A DNA stretch of 34,653 nucleotides, taken from an uncultured Gammaproteobacteria bacterium. GTDB lineage: Bacteria > Pseudomonadota > Gammaproteobacteria > CAMYKB01. This document shows positions 1-29,430 of the stretch, in pieces. The translations under genes and the position numbers were made by a program. The notes under the pieces were generated by a model that was not told where the DNA came from, ran no database searches, and worked only from the letters and a program-made list of their open reading frames with translations. The stretch is from the NCBI GenBank assembly GCA_947258875.1, contig CAMYKB010000025.1, positions 1 through 34,653 on the forward strand, written 5' to 3'. Within the stretch, counting starts at the first letter, position 1. Every line of letters starts with the position of its first letter.

Positions 1-1037
1 CGCCTTAGACCCAGGATCTTGGCGGCCTTGGCGACAACCCCGCCGGCCTCGTCTAGGGCTTGTCTAATAAGATGTGTCTCTATACTAGCAATGACCTGTT
101 TCAAGTTGACACCTTCAGAAGGCATTTCCAGCCTGGCTATCAGGTCTTCAGGTGTCAATAAGGTGTCAATATCATTGGTAACATTTTTATTGATTTCGGT
201 TACCGGCGAATCCCTGAACTGAGATGGTAAATCCTTAGCACGCACGAGATCACCGGTATTAAGGATACGTAAGCGTTCTACCAGGTTGGATAACTCACGT
301 ACATTACCAGGCCAATGATAGTTATGTAACGCAGCCAGAGCGTTATCACTCAGTGTAAAGACACCGCGCTCATTCTCCAGGCGCCTGACCATATTTGCTA
401 CCAACGCCTCAATATCTTCAACCCGTTCTCGCAAGGCTGGCATTTCAATAGGAAAGACATTCAGCCGATAGTAAAGATCCTCCCTGAAAAGTTCTTTTCG
501 AATGCGTTCCTGGAGATTACGGTGAGTAGCCGCAACGATCCTGACATCGGCATGCTGGGTCTTGCCCCCTCCAACGCGCTCATAGGTGCGTTCCTGTAAT
601 ACCCGTAAGAGCTTAACCTGCATATCCGGGCTCATGTCGCCAATTTCGTCAAGGAATAATGTCCCCCCCTCCGCCATTTCAAAACGGCCGGCGCGCGAGG
701 TTATTGCGCCTGTGAAAGCACCCTTTTCATGACCGAATAATTCGCTTTCCAGCAAATCACGTGGTATCGCGCCACAATTGATTGGTACAAAGGGTTTATC
801 AGCGCGCAGAGACTTTCTATGGATAATTCTGGCGATGATTTCCTTGCCGGTGCCCGATTCACCCAGGATGAGTACATTGGCTTCCGTCGTAGCAACCTGA
901 TCGACCAGTTGCCGGACCCTCTCTATTTCGGGGCTGGCGCCCTCAAAGGAACAGACTGACTGTCTGCGGCGGCGGCGTGGTGTTGAAGATTCAATCTGCG
1001 AGGTATCCCTATCATCAAGCTTTTCGTATGCTGGCAT
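1..1037 (-). CDS. flrA: Sigma54-dependent flagellar master activator, FleQ/FlrA type, without a receiver domain (partial)
   Basis: This is a AAA+ enhancer-binding protein that would activate sigma54 at flagellar promoters. About 345 residues are visible and the C-terminus is cut by the window edge. Walker A GESGTGKE lies near residues 59-66, the sigma54-contact loop GAFTGA at 106-111 and Walker B FLDE at 128-131. The last visible residues, [11 protein letters not shown], begin a Fis-type helix-turn-helix like that of FleQ. FleQ proteins normally carry about 130 residues before the AAA+ domain. Here the ATG at 1037 leaves only about 32, including a run of five arginines, and an in-frame stop lies three codons upstream. 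An AGGAAG ribosome site precedes the ATG. Where FleQ has its LFRS c-di-GMP motif I read SVCS. Position after fliT matches fleQ in pseudomonads. The family call is firm; the role as flagellar master regulator is inferred from synteny. Confidence 0.88.
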
Positions 1038-15443: not shown

Positions 15444-15842
15444 TTATTCTCCTTTCAATGCACCGATGATGCCCGCAATCTTACGATTGAGAAATTCCAG
15501 GCTGGCTTGATAATGAACCGCATTCTCAGCAAATTTTCCTTGCTCTATTTGTGACTCGACCGTGTTGCCATCAAGAGAAGCTTGTAACGGGATTCGATAT
15601 TTAGCCTGCGTGCCTGTACTGGTTTCATTAATACCAGGCAAATGATTTGCCTGGGTTTGCGTCATTCTTGCGGCAAGATTATTCTTTGCCTGACCTAGAG
15701 CGCCTTTGAAATCAATATCCCTGGCCTTGTAATTCGGTGTGTCAGCGTTTGCCATATTCGAGGCCAGTATTTCTGCGCGTCTCGAACGCAGCACTACAGC
15801 CTGCTCATGCACACCGAATAACTTGTCTATATTGCCTGGCAT
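15444..15842 (-). CDS. flgB: Proximal rod protein FlgB
   Basis: FlgB is the most proximal rod subunit and first gene of the hook-basal-body operon. The 132-residue protein starts MPGNIDKLFGVHEQAVVLRS and has the motif ILASNMANADTPNYKARDIDF (about residues 26-46), then a GNTVESQIEQGKFAENAVHYQ segment and a C-terminal helix. Length matches the family (about 130-138). A consensus sigma54 promoter stands about 50 bases upstream. Confidence 0.97.
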   Translation of the reverse strand: MPGNIDKLFGVHEQAVVLRSRRAEILASNMANADTPNYKARDIDFKGALGQAKNNLAARMTQTQANHLPGINETSTGTQAKYRIPLQASLDGNTVESQIEQGKFAENAVHYQASLEFLNRKIAGIIGALKGE

Positions 15843-15889
15843 CGAATCGCTCCAAAAAATTTACATAATTTAACTTAACTAAATTTAAC

Positions 15890-15916
15890 TAAAGCAATCG
15901 TCGTGCCAGCCGATAA
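15890..15916 (+). promoter_or_regulatory. Sigma28 (FliA) promoter towards flgA
   Basis: On the plus strand: TAAA (15890-15893), 15 bases, GCCGATAA (15909-15916), a full consensus match. Transcription would start near 15926 and reach flgA (16182) through a leader of about 255 bases. The leader is long, so another gene start or an RNA element may lie within it. Confidence 0.85.
15893..15908 (-). promoter_or_regulatory. Sigma54 promoter for the flgB-flgJ operon
   Basis: On the minus strand the sequence reads TGGCACG-ACGA-TTGCT, an exact match to the consensus TGGCACG-N4-TTGCW. The transcript start should be near 15882, about 40 bases before flgB. It lies exactly inside the spacer of the opposing sigma28 promoter. 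Confidence 0.95.
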
Positions 15917-15975
15917 ATATGTGTTTTATGAGCGAGCTATATATAAGGTGAACGGCAAAAAGGTATATCAATGCG

Positions 15976-16007
15976 GCAATTCGATGCCGGATACCGGCAA
16001 CAATTGC
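15976..16007 (+). repeat. Strong hairpin in the flgA leader
   Basis: GCAATT (15976-15981) pairs with AATTGC (16002-16007), and TGCCGG (15985-15990) pairs with CCGGCA (15994-15999) around a three-base loop. Twelve base pairs are interrupted by a small internal loop. There is no T-tract, so it is not an intrinsic terminator. It may affect stability or translation of the flgA message, or serve as an operator. Confidence 0.55.
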
Positions 16008-16181
16008 AGCCATGTGAGTGGGAAATACTGATGTCTATTCAAGCTATTACTCAGTCTTTACAGCTGAAATAAGGATTACGGCATACATCTTGCTGGTACT
16101 ATAGAAAATAGGCTATTGGCAGCGGACACAACGTCAATAATCTGTCGCAAACAATGCACTATTGGATAAACAGCCATAAAA

Positions 16182-16913
16182 ATGGGTTTAATCGTCAAAA
16201 AAATAGCGTTAGTACAGCGGGGGCTTAGTCTCTGTCTTCAGGTAGTATTATGCCTAGGCATAGCATTGCCGCTATGGGCTGGCGAGATCCAATCGCTACA
16301 GTCGATACGGGATGTAGTGAGCAAGTTCGTGGATGCTGAACATGCACATTCGAAATCAATATCACTGTCGACCAGCCAATTAGACAATCGACTGCGCTTG
16401 CAACGTTGTTCACGTAAGCTTGAGGCCTTCTGGTCACCCGGAGCAAGGCCGATTGGCAATACCACAGTGGGTGTAAAATGTAACGGCGACAAACCATGGA
16501 AAATTTATGTGCCGGTTTATATCGAAGCCCGCGAAAAAGTCTGGGTCGCCAATCGACACCTGACCCGTGGAGAGACCCTTGTAGCCAGTGATGCGTCTTC
16601 GCAGAATCTCAATATTTCAGCGCATCACCGCGGCTATATTACTGATATTAATAAGTTTATTGGTTACGAGCTAAAACGGTCAATCAAGAAAGGCGGCATT
16701 CTGACACCACGGAGCCTGGAGGCACCCAAGCTGGTGAAACGTGGTGAAAAGGTTATTTTGCTGGCAGCGACAAACGGTGTGGAAATACGGATGAGCGGTA
16801 CGGCTCTCAGTGACGGCAGCGAAGGGATCAGCATAAAAGTCCGTAATCTGTCCTCCAGACGTATTATCGAAGGTATAGTGATAGCACCCGGAATCGTAAA
16901 GGTAAGAATATGA
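16182..16913 (+). CDS. flgA: P-ring assembly chaperone FlgA
   Basis: FlgA is a periplasmic chaperone for FlgI during P-ring assembly. The 243-residue protein has a signal peptide (KK start, hydrophobic core near residues 14-32, cut after LWA). It has an N-terminal domain and a C-terminal SAF-type domain, visible as VWVANRHLTRGETLVASDAS (about 120-139), followed by GGILTPRSLEAPKLVKRGEKV. Length is at the upper end of the family (about 219-245). It is transcribed away from flgB and shortly followed by flgM. Confidence 0.92.
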   Translation: MGLIVKKIALVQRGLSLCLQVVLCLGIALPLWAGEIQSLQSIRDVVSKFVDAEHAHSKSISLSTSQLDNRLRLQRCSRKLEAFWSPGARPIGNTTVGVKCNGDKPWKIYVPVYIEAREKVWVANRHLTRGETLVASDASSQNLNISAHHRGYITDINKFIGYELKRSIKKGGILTPRSLEAPKLVKRGEKVILLAATNGVEIRMSGTALSDGSEGISIKVRNLSSRRIIEGIVIAPGIVKVRI

Positions 16914-16923
16914 GGCTGTTCGC

Positions 16924-16950
16924 TAAAGTTTTCCGCGAATTTGCCGTTAA
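16924..16950 (+). promoter_or_regulatory. Sigma28 (FliA) promoter for flgM-flgN
   Basis: TAAA (16924-16927), 15 bases, GCCGTTAA (16943-16950): 11 of 12 consensus positions. It lies between flgA and flgM, about 40 bases before the flgM ATG. This gives the classic loop in which sigma28 drives its own anti-sigma factor. Confidence 0.87.
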
Positions 16951-16986: not shown

Positions 16987-17310
16987 ATGAGCAATACAAT
17001 CAATGGCACTCCCAGACCTATCCAGGCGGTGGAAGGTCGGGGTCAAACTCAATCCGAGAAGGCGAAGACTGCAGAAGGCAGTGAAGACCATCGTAAGATG
17101 GCCTCCGCCGGCAGTGGTTCGACTGACCACGTAGACCTCACTTCAACTGCGCAAAAGCTCATTGAGCTTGAGAATGGCATGAAGGACGTGCCCGTAGTCG
17201 ACCAGCAGAAAGTTGATAGCATCAAGCATGCTATTGCTGATGGTAGTTACAATGTCAACGCCGAGAGCATCGCCAGCAAGTTAATCGAGATCGAGAAATC
17301 GGATAACTGA
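16987..17310 (+). CDS. flgM: Anti-sigma28 factor FlgM
   Basis: FlgM binds and holds sigma28 (FliA) until the hook is finished, then is exported through it, releasing late gene expression. The 107-residue protein has a disordered, polar N-terminal half and the conserved C-terminal part VDLTSTAQKLIELE, then VDSIKHAIADGSYNVNAESI and ASKLIEIE. That is the helix pair that grips sigma28. GGAG precedes the ATG. It is 11 bases from flgN. Confidence 0.95.
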   Translation: MSNTINGTPRPIQAVEGRGQTQSEKAKTAEGSEDHRKMASAGSGSTDHVDLTSTAQKLIELENGMKDVPVVDQQKVDSIKHAIADGSYNVNAESIASKLIEIEKSDN

Positions 17311-17321
17311 GTGGATAAGTA

Positions 17322-17810
17322 ATGAAACCACAAGAAAACAGTAAACCACTCGAACAACTCCTGGAAGCACTGACCACACACGGACAGCACTTCAAGCAGC
17401 TACTCATCACCGAACAAGATGCACTGGATGCAAGAGATACCTCGGAGATCAATCTGATTATCAGGAAGAAGCAGGATTGTATCGAGGCGCTCTCTCATGC
17501 TGACAGTATATTCAGGAATACGTTGAATGCGACTGGCTACAATGAACATGATCACCTTGCTGACTATCTTGCCAACAAATTTGGCCCTGATTGCCCACTT
17601 ATTTTACAGCTTGATTCTTTCACTGCGTTGTTTGATGAATGCCGTAAAATCAACCAGCAAAACAATTCACTCGTTTCAATTGGTTTACGCCAGACACAAC
17701 AGGCCCTTAACCTATTAAGGGGAATCCCAGGTATTGAAAACGATAGTGTCTATGGACCCGCAGGCCAGACGCTCAATAACAACAAAGGTAAGGAGCTGGC
17801 CAAGGCCTGA
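17322..17810 (+). CDS. flgN: Junction-protein export chaperone FlgN
   Basis: FlgN is the cytoplasmic chaperone for FlgK and FlgL. The 162-residue protein is helical throughout, with the typical LEQLLEALTTHGQHFKQLLI start and the long central helix around DTSEINLIIRKKQDCIEAL. The C-terminal region around NQQNNSLVSIGLRQTQQALN is the substrate-binding part of the family. Its place directly after flgM is the normal one. Similarity in this family is modest, but size, fold pattern and location agree. Confidence 0.88.
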   Translation: MKPQENSKPLEQLLEALTTHGQHFKQLLITEQDALDARDTSEINLIIRKKQDCIEALSHADSIFRNTLNATGYNEHDHLADYLANKFGPDCPLILQLDSFTALFDECRKINQQNNSLVSIGLRQTQQALNLLRGIPGIENDSVYGPAGQTLNNNKGKELAKA

Positions 17811-25239: not shown

Positions 25240-28200
25240 TCACGCCCTGACAGGCTCAGGCTGGCCCTCAGACCCCCCATTGTCGGTAACGGGAAGATCT
25301 ATGGTTCCGCTATGCCCTGAAACTGGCTTATCACTGCTCGTATCTGTATTGGCGCGGCGATCGGTTGTGCGGCGGTTGGTAGTATCAGAGTATTCTGAAG
25401 ATTGCGTCTGTCGGCGAGCGGCGATACGCCGATCGATAAAGCCATTTGTACCCAGCTTCACGACCTGGCCTTCCTCGAGTTTGAATGTGGCGCCGTTAAC
25501 ACCAACAATGCAGGGAATATTATATTCGCGGGCAACAATCGACATATGGCTCAGGAAACCACCAATCTCCGTGACCACACCCGAAACGCTGTCGAAAAGC
25601 GGGATCCAGCGTGGATCCGTGTATTTCACGACCAGGATATCGTCTTTGTGCAGTGATTCGGGCATCGAGTCTTCATCCACAATTCGTATGGTACCCTGGA
25701 CTTCGCTGTCACCGGCTACCCAGGTTCCCATCAAGGCACCAGCTGTATCAACCGCATTCATCAGGCCACCATTAACATCAAACCGCAGGCCCTCGAGCGC
25801 ATGCAGCGAAAGCTCAAGCGGTAAATTAACGGCCTTGAAAACCTCTCTTTCATGTTGGCGGGATCCAACCAGCTGCGCGATCTGTTGTGCGGAAAGACGA
25901 TGTAACTTCATGACCTCATCGATGGTGAGATAAAATATTTCATGCGCCATGCATTTTCGTCGGCTGATCTCCAGCAATAACGTCCGAATACTAGAGAACT
26001 CGCGCATGCAATAATGCTTTGCATCTTCCTTCAGACTCTGAAAACGGCGTGCACGCTCAATATTGATGCGTAACAAACGATTATCTGGTAGTTCAATGTT
26101 GGCTGCAGTGGGGCTTCGCATCGGTTTTGATGCATCCACCATTTGCTCGATCAGCACTTCGTTTTCCTGGTAACGTGGCTCTGCAAGCTCGTAGTCGTGC
26201 AATGCACGGTAGCCAAATGCTTTGAGAAAATCTTCCAGCGGACGCTCACCGGTTTTTATCGCTGGCAGCATATTCAATGCCTGGTGTTGTATGGTCTCTG
26301 GACCATGCCCCAGATACGAAGCAGCCTCAAGGCCGTATTTGGCAAGTGCCTGCTTCGCTGTCTTCATATAAAAATCGGCTGCGATATTAATGATCTCGGC
26401 GTGTATATAATCCTCATGCAGAAACCGATCAAGCCATTGATCAAGCAACCCTAGCAACTCATCGAAACTGAAATGCGTCAGGTCTAGCGCCTCACGTATA
26501 CGCATATCAGAGATCAATCGCGGTAAAAACTCACTGCGGAATTCCTCTTCGATGGCATCTGCTGCCCTTGAAAGTCTGAACGATGCCATCGCACCCGGTG
26601 CGCCAAAGCGCCGCCGCCCTTCTACTACATTCACATAGGTTTGCCCGAATGCTGTCACGACATAAGCTGCGGAATCATCCTCATCAACGTTATAGGGAAT
26701 ACCCAATCGCTGACAGGCGATATCCGTTGAACCATTCTCGTCCCAAAGCGCCTGCATGACGGACAAACTCAATGGCGATGGCTCTGGCAAGAGTTCAGAA
26801 AGTTCGTTTTGCTGCAAAACCGGAGTAGCCGCATCTGTGGTTCCACTAAATAATGACATCAAACGCAGGCGTTCTCTCTCAACCACAGATTTATTGCCTT
26901 CCGCCGCCGCGGCACTGATAGTGATATCACGTGCCTGCAGAATGTAATACCTGCCCTTCGCATAGGCCCATTCAATATCCTGGGGGCAAGCAAATAGCTC
27001 TTCTATCTGACGTGCAATAGTCATTAACGGCAGAAGATCAATGGGTGACTGTTGATCATCACTCATGGGAAGTCCACTCACTGCACCATAGCTGTAAACT
27101 GAGGGTGTCGCCTTACCGCTGACTAAGGACTCACCCAGCCCCTGCACCATTTCTATCAGCATACAGCCCGTGGAGGTCGGATGCTGGGTAAACAATACAC
27201 CTGCGTATTCAGCATCCACCATGGCCTGGACCAGCACACAACCCTGACCGTGCGATTCGTTGTTATACGCTTCAACGCGACCATTATTGTAGGAACCACG
27301 AACCTGTGCTACGGCATCGAGAAGATGCTCTTTTTTAACATTCAGAACGGAATCAAAGACACCCGCAAAACTCTGTTCACTGCCATCTTCAGCAACTGCT
27401 GTGCTTCGCACTGCAACCTTGCCGACATCCAGCCTGGAAAAAGCTGTGTTGATAAGCTTCTGATCCTTATCAATCATTGACAAGGTTCCGTCCACCTGTG
27501 TCCTTGCCCGGCTCAATAACTGATCGGTAATCACAAACCCATCAGGGACAGCAAAACCTGCAGACCGCATCTGCGCCAAACGACCAGCCTTGTTACCTAT
27601 ATAAGGCACATCCTGCGCATCGCGAAGCGAGACGGTACCCGCATATCCGGGCGGGGGTACGTGGCGTAAGCGGGTACCCGAAACCGATTTCTGTTTTGCC
27701 ATCAATTGCACAATATGTGTCTGCAATAAAATGAAACCCAGACTGAAGATCAGATAGAGGCTCACAGCGGCATTTAGTGGCATACATAACACTGCGACAA
27801 ATGCAGCAAGCCCCAGATATAACAACTTGAACTTCAAACTGCGGTTTATTGTGGAACTCATAATCTGAGCGAACATCAGCGCCCCGACTATGGATGGCAT
27901 TATACGTGTTGGATCGGCCTCGCCAAGATTGGTCACCCATAGAAACGGCTCGTTTACACCCTCGGATACCTTACTAACCGCTGAGAAAAACAGAATAAAT
28001 ACACCCAGTTGAACAAACGATCCAAGCACATTGCGGCCATGTGTAAGTCCATTTTTCTTGTAAAGCCGCAGGGTAGCTCGAGAAAGCCTGGCTTTATTGT
28101 CTCCATACTTTTTCTTAAGCGCATCAATGGATGGTTTTAGCTCCCTCTGCCTGACACCGTCTCGTTCCGCCTTGAGGCTGATCGGTAAAACGATAAGACG

Positions 28201-29430
28201 CAACAGAACAACCAGAAGAAAGATAGAGAGCGTCAGCGAACCGGATTTGGCCTTCATCCAGGCCAATACCTCTTGAAGTGGCGACGTCGCAAGGTCAAAC
28301 AGGGTTTGACTCTGCATATCGCGCCATTGTGCTACGTAACCCTTTACACTGGATGGCGTCGAATATTCATGTGGCACGGTGTAACGTCCACGGTAATCAT
28401 ATCCAAGGCGGCTCAGCTTGAGACCCAGAATTTGGCTATAGAAGCAACTGCGTTTGTCATAGCAGGGTGTAATCACCGGATGCTTTGGCAGCTCCTTCAA
28501 TGCTAGGTCCAGCTCTGCAGTCGTAAGCTTGCGAACAGGTATATTCACTGCACCGGGGAGATGCCCTCTTTCAAAATCTGCCGGATACCTCAAATCAACA
28601 AATAGCGCATTCTCGTTAGCAACCAGTTCCTCTACCACAGCGGTCTTAAGTAAAACATCGCTATTGGGAAACTCGGGCAACATACGCAAATTGTTGCGCT
28701 CACCCTGCTCAAAACCAACAAGCTCGCGTTCTTCAGCGACCCACTTTTCATAACCGCCGATCACGAATCTGCAAGGGAGGCCTTGTTCGGTAAACTCAGA
28801 ACAAAGCTCCGAGCTCCTGTTACCCGAATAGCAGAGCAGCACATTCTCTTTATCAGGAAGAATAAGTTTCTCGACAGACACTCGAGTATCCGGATAGCGG
28901 CTTTGCCTGGCGCCCTTGATATACCCTGTCTCGTACTCCTCACTCTCCCGCACATCAATAATATTGAGTCCGTGACCGTTATCCAGCCAACCCTGCAATG
29001 TATCCGTAGTAATACCCCGGGGATGATTTTGTTGATCACTAAACGCCAGCGTCTTGAGTGATATGTCTCCGACAGCTTTACCAGCTTCTGTTGACGAACG
29101 CCATAAATTTGTCTGTAGGCGTTTGGTCGTCTCGTCTTTGTTATACGAAAACTGCAGAAGATTGGCAGCCAGGGAAAGCGTCAGCATAACGCCGGCTGCT
29201 ACAAACAGGTATTTCCAACCTGCCGTGATTGTTGAATGGGATCCATTTATCCGCGATCTACTTGCGAATCCTGCACCTAGCAGGACAGTCGACAAACCGA
29301 GTAGTTGTGCGACACTACCAAATAGATTAACGACTATGTCGGGTGATGGTATCGCCCATGCGTGTGTCGGGAAGATCAGGCAAAAAAGAAAACTTGATAT
29401 ACAGCAATACGCTACTCTACGACTCATCAT
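25240..29430 (-). CDS. Rhodanese-rhodanese-YidC/Oxa1-PPDK/RPH fusion protein
   Basis: A 1396-residue membrane protein joining modules normally found apart. Order: signal peptide (1-26, cut after AWA); membrane segments near 30-55 and 72-92; rhodanese 1 (about 141-240, loop CYSGNRS, C200); rhodanese 2 (about 255-372, loop CYDKRS, C323). Next comes a YidC/Oxa1 core (about 383-580) with the groove arginine R411 in LLRLIVLP. Then come a PPDK/PEP-synthase-type ATP-binding domain (about 600-840; GNKAGRLAQM, RSTAVAEDGSEQSFAG, QDIEWA), a middle domain with RPH-like segments (ALHDYELAEPRYQEN, EIFYLTIDEV) and a phosphohistidine swivel domain (GGFLSHMSIVARE, H1295). The PEP-binding barrel is absent. The tail is polar and probably disordered. 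Predicted topology puts rhodaneses in the periplasm and the ATP module in the cytoplasm. Domain calls are firm; function is unknown. A Pho-box-like promoter lies upstream. Confidence 0.87.
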   Translation of the reverse strand: MMSRRVAYCCISSFLFCLIFPTHAWAIPSPDIVVNLFGSVAQLLGLSTVLLGAGFASRSRINGSHSTITAGWKYLFVAAGVMLTLSLAANLLQFSYNKDETTKRLQTNLWRSSTEAGKAVGDISLKTLAFSDQQNHPRGITTDTLQGWLDNGHGLNIIDVRESEEYETGYIKGARQSRYPDTRVSVEKLILPDKENVLLCYSGNRSSELCSEFTEQGLPCRFVIGGYEKWVAEERELVGFEQGERNNLRMLPEFPNSDVLLKTAVVEELVANENALFVDLRYPADFERGHLPGAVNIPVRKLTTAELDLALKELPKHPVITPCYDKRSCFYSQILGLKLSRLGYDYRGRYTVPHEYSTPSSVKGYVAQWRDMQSQTLFDLATSPLQEVLAWMKAKSGSLTLSIFLLVVLLRLIVLPISLKAERDGVRQRELKPSIDALKKKYGDNKARLSRATLRLYKKNGLTHGRNVLGSFVQLGVFILFFSAVSKVSEGVNEPFLWVTNLGEADPTRIMPSIVGALMFAQIMSSTINRSLKFKLLYLGLAAFVAVLCMPLNAAVSLYLIFSLGFILLQTHIVQLMAKQKSVSGTRLRHVPPPGYAGTVSLRDAQDVPYIGNKAGRLAQMRSAGFAVPDGFVITDQLLSRARTQVDGTLSMIDKDQKLINTAFSRLDVGKVAVRSTAVAEDGSEQSFAGVFDSVLNVKKEHLLDAVAQVRGSYNNGRVEAYNNESHGQGCVLVQAMVDAEYAGVLFTQHPTSTGCMLIEMVQGLGESLVSGKATPSVYSYGAVSGLPMSDDQQSPIDLLPLMTIARQIEELFACPQDIEWAYAKGRYYILQARDITISAAAAEGNKSVVERERLRLMSLFSGTTDAATPVLQQNELSELLPEPSPLSLSVMQALWDENGSTDIACQRLGIPYNVDEDDSAAYVVTAFGQTYVNVVEGRRRFGAPGAMASFRLSRAADAIEEEFRSEFLPRLISDMRIREALDLTHFSFDELLGLLDQWLDRFLHEDYIHAEIINIAADFYMKTAKQALAKYGLEAASYLGHGPETIQHQALNMLPAIKTGERPLEDFLKAFGYRALHDYELAEPRYQENEVLIEQMVDASKPMRSPTAANIELPDNRLLRINIERARRFQSLKEDAKHYCMREFSSIRTLLLEISRRKCMAHEIFYLTIDEVMKLHRLSAQQIAQLVGSRQHEREVFKAVNLPLELSLHALEGLRFDVNGGLMNAVDTAGALMGTWVAGDSEVQGTIRIVDEDSMPESLHKDDILVVKYTDPRWIPLFDSVSGVVTEIGGFLSHMSIVAREYNIPCIVGVNGATFKLEEGQVVKLGTNGFIDRRIAARRQTQSSEYSDTTNRRTTDRRANTDTSSDKPVSGHSGTIDLPVTDNGGSEGQPEPVRA

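Follow-up and report, generated by a model that had tools for sequence, protein, structure and literature searches.

A sigma28-type promoter enclosing the opposed sigma54 promoter of the flagellar flgB operon recurs in one register in distant gammaproteobacterial genomes and may support a late hand-off

The window analysed here, the whole stretch of 34,653 nucleotides from an uncultured gammaproteobacterium, holds two flagellar gene groups that run away from each other, with flgB, the first gene of the rod/hook operon (15444-15842, minus strand; Pfam Flg_bb_rod), on one side and flgA, the gene for the P-ring chaperone (16182-16913, plus strand; Pfam ChapFlgA), on the other, the latter followed on its strand by flgM, encoding the anti-sigma28 factor (16987-17310; Pfam FlgM), and flgN (17322-17810; Pfam FlgN). 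Between the two groups, plus-strand positions 15890-15916 read TAAAGCAATCGTCGTGCCAGCCGATAA, i.e., TAAAG, then CAATCGTCGTGCCA, then GCCGATAA, and form a sigma28-type promoter (TAAA-N15-GCCGATAA) that faces flgA-flgM-flgN and matches 12 of 12 core bases. Its 15-bp spacer is filled by the opposite-strand sigma54 promoter of flgB (TGGCACGACGATTGCT; 15893-15908, minus strand), an exact match to TGGCAC-N5-TTGCW, and a single base, position 15893, is common to the sigma54 site and the sigma28 -35 element. The nested layout is real, with 27 bases carrying two opposed flagellar promoter motifs; both the nesting within the spacer and the shared -35 base had been claimed in a preliminary description of this DNA and were confirmed at these coordinates. 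Its further claim, that both promoters match their consensus fully, holds for the sigma54 site and for the sigma28 core but not for the longer sigma28 form TAAAGTTT-N11-GCCGATAA, to which the nested site has three mismatches, since GCAA, dictated by the sigma54 -12 element, stands in place of the GTTT of the longer -35. Transcription is predicted to start near 15923-15926 on the plus strand from the sigma28 site and near 15882 on the minus strand from the flgB sigma54 site.

The sigma54 site at 15893-15908 is the sole match to TGGCACN5TTGCW without mismatch within the window, and that exact consensus occurs at five places in the 3.01-Mb genome, the flgB site included. Exact TAAA-N15-GCCGATAA likewise has five genomic occurrences, of which the window's contig contains three (before flagellin, before flgK, and the nested site). 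Elsewhere in this genome (G000:C12:52810-52836, i.e., 1501-1527 of locus L002), 45 bp separate an exact sigma28-type site from a downstream gene with a prepilin-type N-methylation motif, behind which further pseudopilin-like frames follow.

Three other elements lie around the nested pair. A probable sigma54 promoter of flgA, recognised by sequence match (CGGCATACATCTTGCT), lies at 16079-16094 on the plus strand, a separate sigma28-type promoter matching 11 of 12 core bases precedes flgM at 16924-16950 on the same strand, and three CGGCAA boxes at 15953-16000, starting at 15953, 15974, and 15995 and thus in 21-bp steps, form a putative enhancer. At a stringent score, 23 of 34 regions have a sigma54-type site facing flgA, where shuffling gives a mean of 0.39, and the same 34 regions contain 84 CGGCAA/TTGCCG boxes between both sigma54 promoters, against 8.49 after shuffling. 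Such boxes are bound, we presume, by FlrC/FleR-type proteins, and the cluster looks like an enhancer common to the divergent flgB and flgA sigma54 promoters; a literature search on the FlrC box motif was uninformative. These patterns make it very likely that flgA has its own sigma54 promoter at 16079-16094. By the order of flagellar assembly the P-ring chaperone is needed before sigma28 is released, so expression of flgA alongside the rod and hook genes would be expected, in line with its own sigma54 site. We rejected the nested sigma28 site as the sole promoter of flgA on these two grounds, the sigma54 site facing flgA and, from general knowledge, the early need for the chaperone, and the nested site is best read as an additional, distal, probably late promoter of flgA-flgM-flgN with a predicted leader of ~260 nt. 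A 33-codon small reading frame (15971-16072, plus strand) lies in this predicted leader and overlaps two of the CGGCAA boxes, while a look at repeats within the flgB-flgA intergenic region was uninformative.

To place the layout among relatives, we compared the same region across the class. Within the sample obtained, relatedness to the window's genome went no lower than class level, and FlgA was therefore used to reach the region class-wide, in samples of 94 and then 369 genomes with many genomes common to both, which gave 152 loci; in the larger sample, loci were drawn among the FlgA matches listed, from 201 positive genomes. With two scan matches added (L052, L058), flgB lay divergently upstream of flgA in 44 of 154 loci. 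Further loci were taken from the orders of three carriers of the nested site, and L052 was dropped as it comes from the same genome as L061, leaving a final set in which the pair is divergent in 48 loci and directly divergent in 35. The 13 of 48 loci with flgB at least 800 bp from flgA were excluded from the register statistics; the 13 such loci of the earlier set had reached at most 5/12 in the nested register. Among the 35 direct regions, 29 came from the class sample and six were reached via carriers or the pattern scan (L058, L183-L185, L215, L217). In 33 of the 35, flgB is faced by a sigma54 site scoring at least 13, and the two regions below this limit were left out of the register count.

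A nested sigma28 site at 11-12 of 12 core bases, in an identical register, was found at six of these 33 flgB sigma54 promoters, in genomes G000 (the window), G044 (L019), G376 (L058/L186), G128 (L061), G086 (L038), and G393 (L217), i.e., in four of the 29 class-sample regions, window included, and in two of the six reached otherwise. At the ten bases that belong to the sigma28 site only, the six carriers match 9-10 and the other 27 sites 1-6. When the sigma28 consensus was shifted across offsets of up to 30 bp in each direction, on either strand, none of 3993 positions scored 10/12 or better, and a mirror control at flgA's own sigma54 sites gave at most six of ten free positions in 27 sites. 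The preliminary description had held chance to be very unlikely, and six of 33 in the exact register against none of 3993 positions in other registers bears this out. Averaged over pairs of carriers, identity is 0.90 at the positions specific to sigma28, 0.49 across the six bases of the sigma54 spacer, and 0.34 in flanks of 25 bp; conservation falls sharply beyond the 27 bp, so that in sequence terms it is the two promoters that are kept and no extended block of DNA. The nested site of each of the six carriers matches sigma28 at least as well as the site of the flgM promoter, and all six also keep a 10-11/12 sigma28 site just after flgA and before flgM, for which reason we rejected the idea that the nested site replaces flgM's own promoter.

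Scanning the 369 genomes with the nested pattern at up to three mismatches returned matches in 42 genomes, and at no more than one mismatch only the four flgB-flgA sites of carriers in that sample. A degenerate pattern run over the genome contigs matched at 16 places, of which L052 and L058 are flgB-flgA sites. Several other places were considered as second nested pairs and not accepted: G044:C1:1757946 lies inside a long frame that by eye resembles an ammonium transporter, neither G160:C104 nor G055:C7 has its match at a recognisable flagellar start, and the match in G093:C185 lies before a chemoreceptor-like start (by eye) and has no sigma54 match. In L050 (3564-3590), what by eye is a GlnK-like start has upstream of it, possibly by chance, a sigma54-like site whose flanks resemble sigma28 elements in the nested register. 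In G164 (L125 1110-1136), a sigma28-type site of 11/12 faces flgA beside, not inside, the flgB sigma54 promoter.

Aligning the region in relatives, as the preliminary description had suggested, thus showed the layout recurring in the same register in six genomes, and these span at least four family-level groups. Most relatives do without the nested site, and flagella hence do not need it. It is absent, for instance, from all four FlgB-bearing genomes of genus g273 within carrier family f45 and from G392 of carrier family f87. On a FlgA+FlgB tree of 39 rows, which is short and partly unresolved with weak deep nodes, the carrier state changes five times, and three of the changes are forced by well-supported branches; a single carrier clade was rejected by an AU test (p = 0.000315) on this same short tree with its weak deep nodes. 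As the sequences stand, the shared register would require a common ancestor that had the site and several later losses, or else several separate gains under a positional constraint.

Both sigma factors were sought in eight genomes, among them all six carriers, the window's assembly included. RpoN (PF04552) scored over cut-off in all eight and FliA in seven, including the five carriers other than the window; the window's assembly gave no FliA match over cut-off, and FlhA was not found in it either. Its contig ends within the flagellar cluster, starting inside a sigma54-activator gene (3-1037, minus strand; Sigma54_activat, HTH_8) that is cut by the contig start and shows no frame coding for an N-terminal receiver-type domain ahead of its ATG. 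The missing FliA and FlhA are likely missing sequence rather than loss, because flgM and several consensus sigma28-type sites remain. The same window has an unusual 1396-residue frame (25240-29430, minus strand) that fuses rhodanese, YidC-like insertase (60KD_IMP), PPDK_N, and PEP-utilizer domains.

What the sequences show is the layout, its recurrence in a single register, a second sigma54 promoter motif, and the clustered boxes; from these we infer which sigma factors use the sites, that they exclude each other, and that this would affect timing. Mutual exclusion is near-certain on geometry, since the two sets of elements overlap and sigma28 and sigma54 holoenzymes cannot both occupy the same 27 bp, in agreement with what the preliminary description had stated. 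It had gone on to propose a built-in switch between sigma54 transcription of flgB and sigma28 transcription of flgA. The part of this that stands is a nested sigma28-type promoter facing flgA, kept in the same register in distant genomes; as a whole it is too simple, because flgA has its own probable sigma54 promoter (and is thus probably not purely late) and flgM a separate sigma28 promoter. More likely, judging from the sequences, the nested site would add a late promoter for flgA-flgM-flgN and let late sigma28 polymerase compete down flgB.

We lean, somewhat more than evenly, towards reading the region as a three-promoter centre of divergent flagellar control, with a sigma28/sigma54 hand-off at the nested site. 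Early on, closed sigma54 complexes would hold the nested sigma28 promoter down, and at the middle (rod/hook) stage sigma54 with its activator would fire the flgB and flgA promoters that flank the common enhancer at 15953-16000. After hook completion and FlgM export, the flgB promoter would come under competition from sigma28 polymerase; when bound, this polymerase would transcribe flgA-flgM-flgN a second time and keep sigma54 polymerase off flgB, and on leaving the nested site it would run over the enhancer and flgA's sigma54 promoter.

Parts of such an arrangement have precedents. In E. coli, flgAMN and flgBCDEFGHIJ are read from flgAP1 and flgBP1, which use sigma70 with FlhD4C2, and from flgAP2 and flgBP2, which use sigma28, and the early activator FlhD4C2 represses the sigma28 promoters, that of flgA included, in vitro (PMC12781870). 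That region thus resembles ours in its divergent control and in having a sigma28 promoter facing flgA near earlier promoters and repressed in vitro by the earlier activator, but its early promoters depend on sigma70 and FlhDC rather than sigma54, its two sigma28 promoters share a -35, and none is described, in the accessible text, as nested in a sigma54 promoter (PMC12781870). Sigma54 holoenzyme is reported to bind promoters in a transcriptionally inactive state (PMC4591121) and, in E. coli, to compete with sigma70 holoenzyme, lowering the output of overlapping sigma70 promoters in vitro (PMC4551910). At E. coli fliL, FliA polymerase has been proposed to outcompete an earlier promoter (PMC4183435). 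The sigma54/sigma70 case likewise has two holoenzymes on overlapping DNA with sigma54 lowering the output of the other; it differs in that the partner is sigma70 and, in the portion seen, there is no recurrent same-register opposed pair serving divergent flagellar operons (PMC4551910).

Polar flagellates offer a regulatory parallel. In the accessible account of V. cholerae (FlrBC) and P. aeruginosa (FleSR), flgB depends on sigma54 and on a two-component activator, as proposed here, and sigma28 acts after hook completion, while no nested sigma28 promoter is mentioned in that text; deletion of sigma28 left flgB reporters unchanged in both species (PMC7064773). Those unchanged reporters would count against the hand-off insofar as these species have a nested site. 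E. coli results also cut against it: without FlhD, overexpression of FliA did not rescue flgA or flgB (PMC4183435). In V. fischeri, flgA is reported to lie outside FlrA control (PMC3948606), so control of flgA varies among polar flagellates. In Campylobacter, the sigma28-dependent noncoding RNAs CjNC1 and CjNC4 are predicted to silence sigma54 genes, which, as far as the available text goes, would likewise let late sigma28 act back on sigma54 genes of the middle stage, but through antisense RNA in trans rather than promoter overlap in cis (PMC4626219). Our search for overlapping or divergent sigma28/sigma54 flagellar promoters, mostly in papers free of subscription and in the parts accessible, found no description of the nested form. 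In the literature searched, then, overlapping promoters with sigma competition at the flgA-flgB divide are known, and a sigma28 promoter nested in a sigma54 promoter is apparently new.

The best-surviving alternative is that the sigma28 promoter is real and boosts flgA-flgM-flgN late, with the overlap carrying no regulatory weight, its position being inherited or cheap and turnover fast. This would suit the G164 site beside the flgB promoter, the many relatives that do without the nested site, and the sigma28 promoter that E. coli flgA has in the same region with no sigma54 involved, by the accessible text (PMC12781870). A booster free to move should, however, turn up at other offsets more than once, whereas six carriers share one register, with none of 3993 positions elsewhere, and do so although they are not one clade; we regard this account as unlikely, if still a serious contender. 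Improbable, in our judgement, is a sigma28 site that serves mainly as a landing place occluding flgB while its own transcript matters little. The sigma54 site of flgA and the sigma28 site of flgM do make that transcript partly redundant, and the accessible text on E. coli fliL proposes something similar, with FliA polymerase competing down an earlier promoter (PMC4183435), but one would hardly expect a pure blocker to take the form of a near-perfect promoter aimed at flgA-flgM-flgN.

We give very little credence to the flanks being the site of another protein or an extended context of the sigma54 promoter. A similar flank does accompany the sigma54-like site before the GlnK-like start in L050, but conservation picks out precisely the sigma28 core positions and their 15-bp spacing, the arrangement also present before flagellin, flgK, and flgM in this genome, and the flanks are missing at 27 of 33 flgB sigma54 sites and at all 27 flgA sigma54 sites. 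A chance overlap of two short motifs is hardly credible and was rejected by the register and mirror controls and the pattern scan, for while 14 of the 16 degenerate-pattern matches are scattered at unrelated places, six genomes from at least four family-level groups have the pair at a homologous site in the same register, against none of 3993 positions elsewhere.

The hand-off itself admits a bolder form, which we put forward only tentatively and would sooner doubt than assert: late sigma28 polymerase would seize the sigma54 promoter of the rod/hook operon from the other strand, read on through the shared enhancer, and in this way directly switch the operon off, a one-step hand-off at a 27-bp site that would couple completion of the hook to the end of rod/hook expression and that has been kept, or repeatedly reached, in at least four family-level groups. 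To our knowledge, the turn-down of middle-stage flagellar genes after hook completion is little understood in sigma54-type polar flagellates. The locus offers a compact, cis-acting candidate answer, a late promoter inside a middle one, and a single family that both has the nested site (G044, G376) and lacks it (genus g273) provides a natural experiment on timing.
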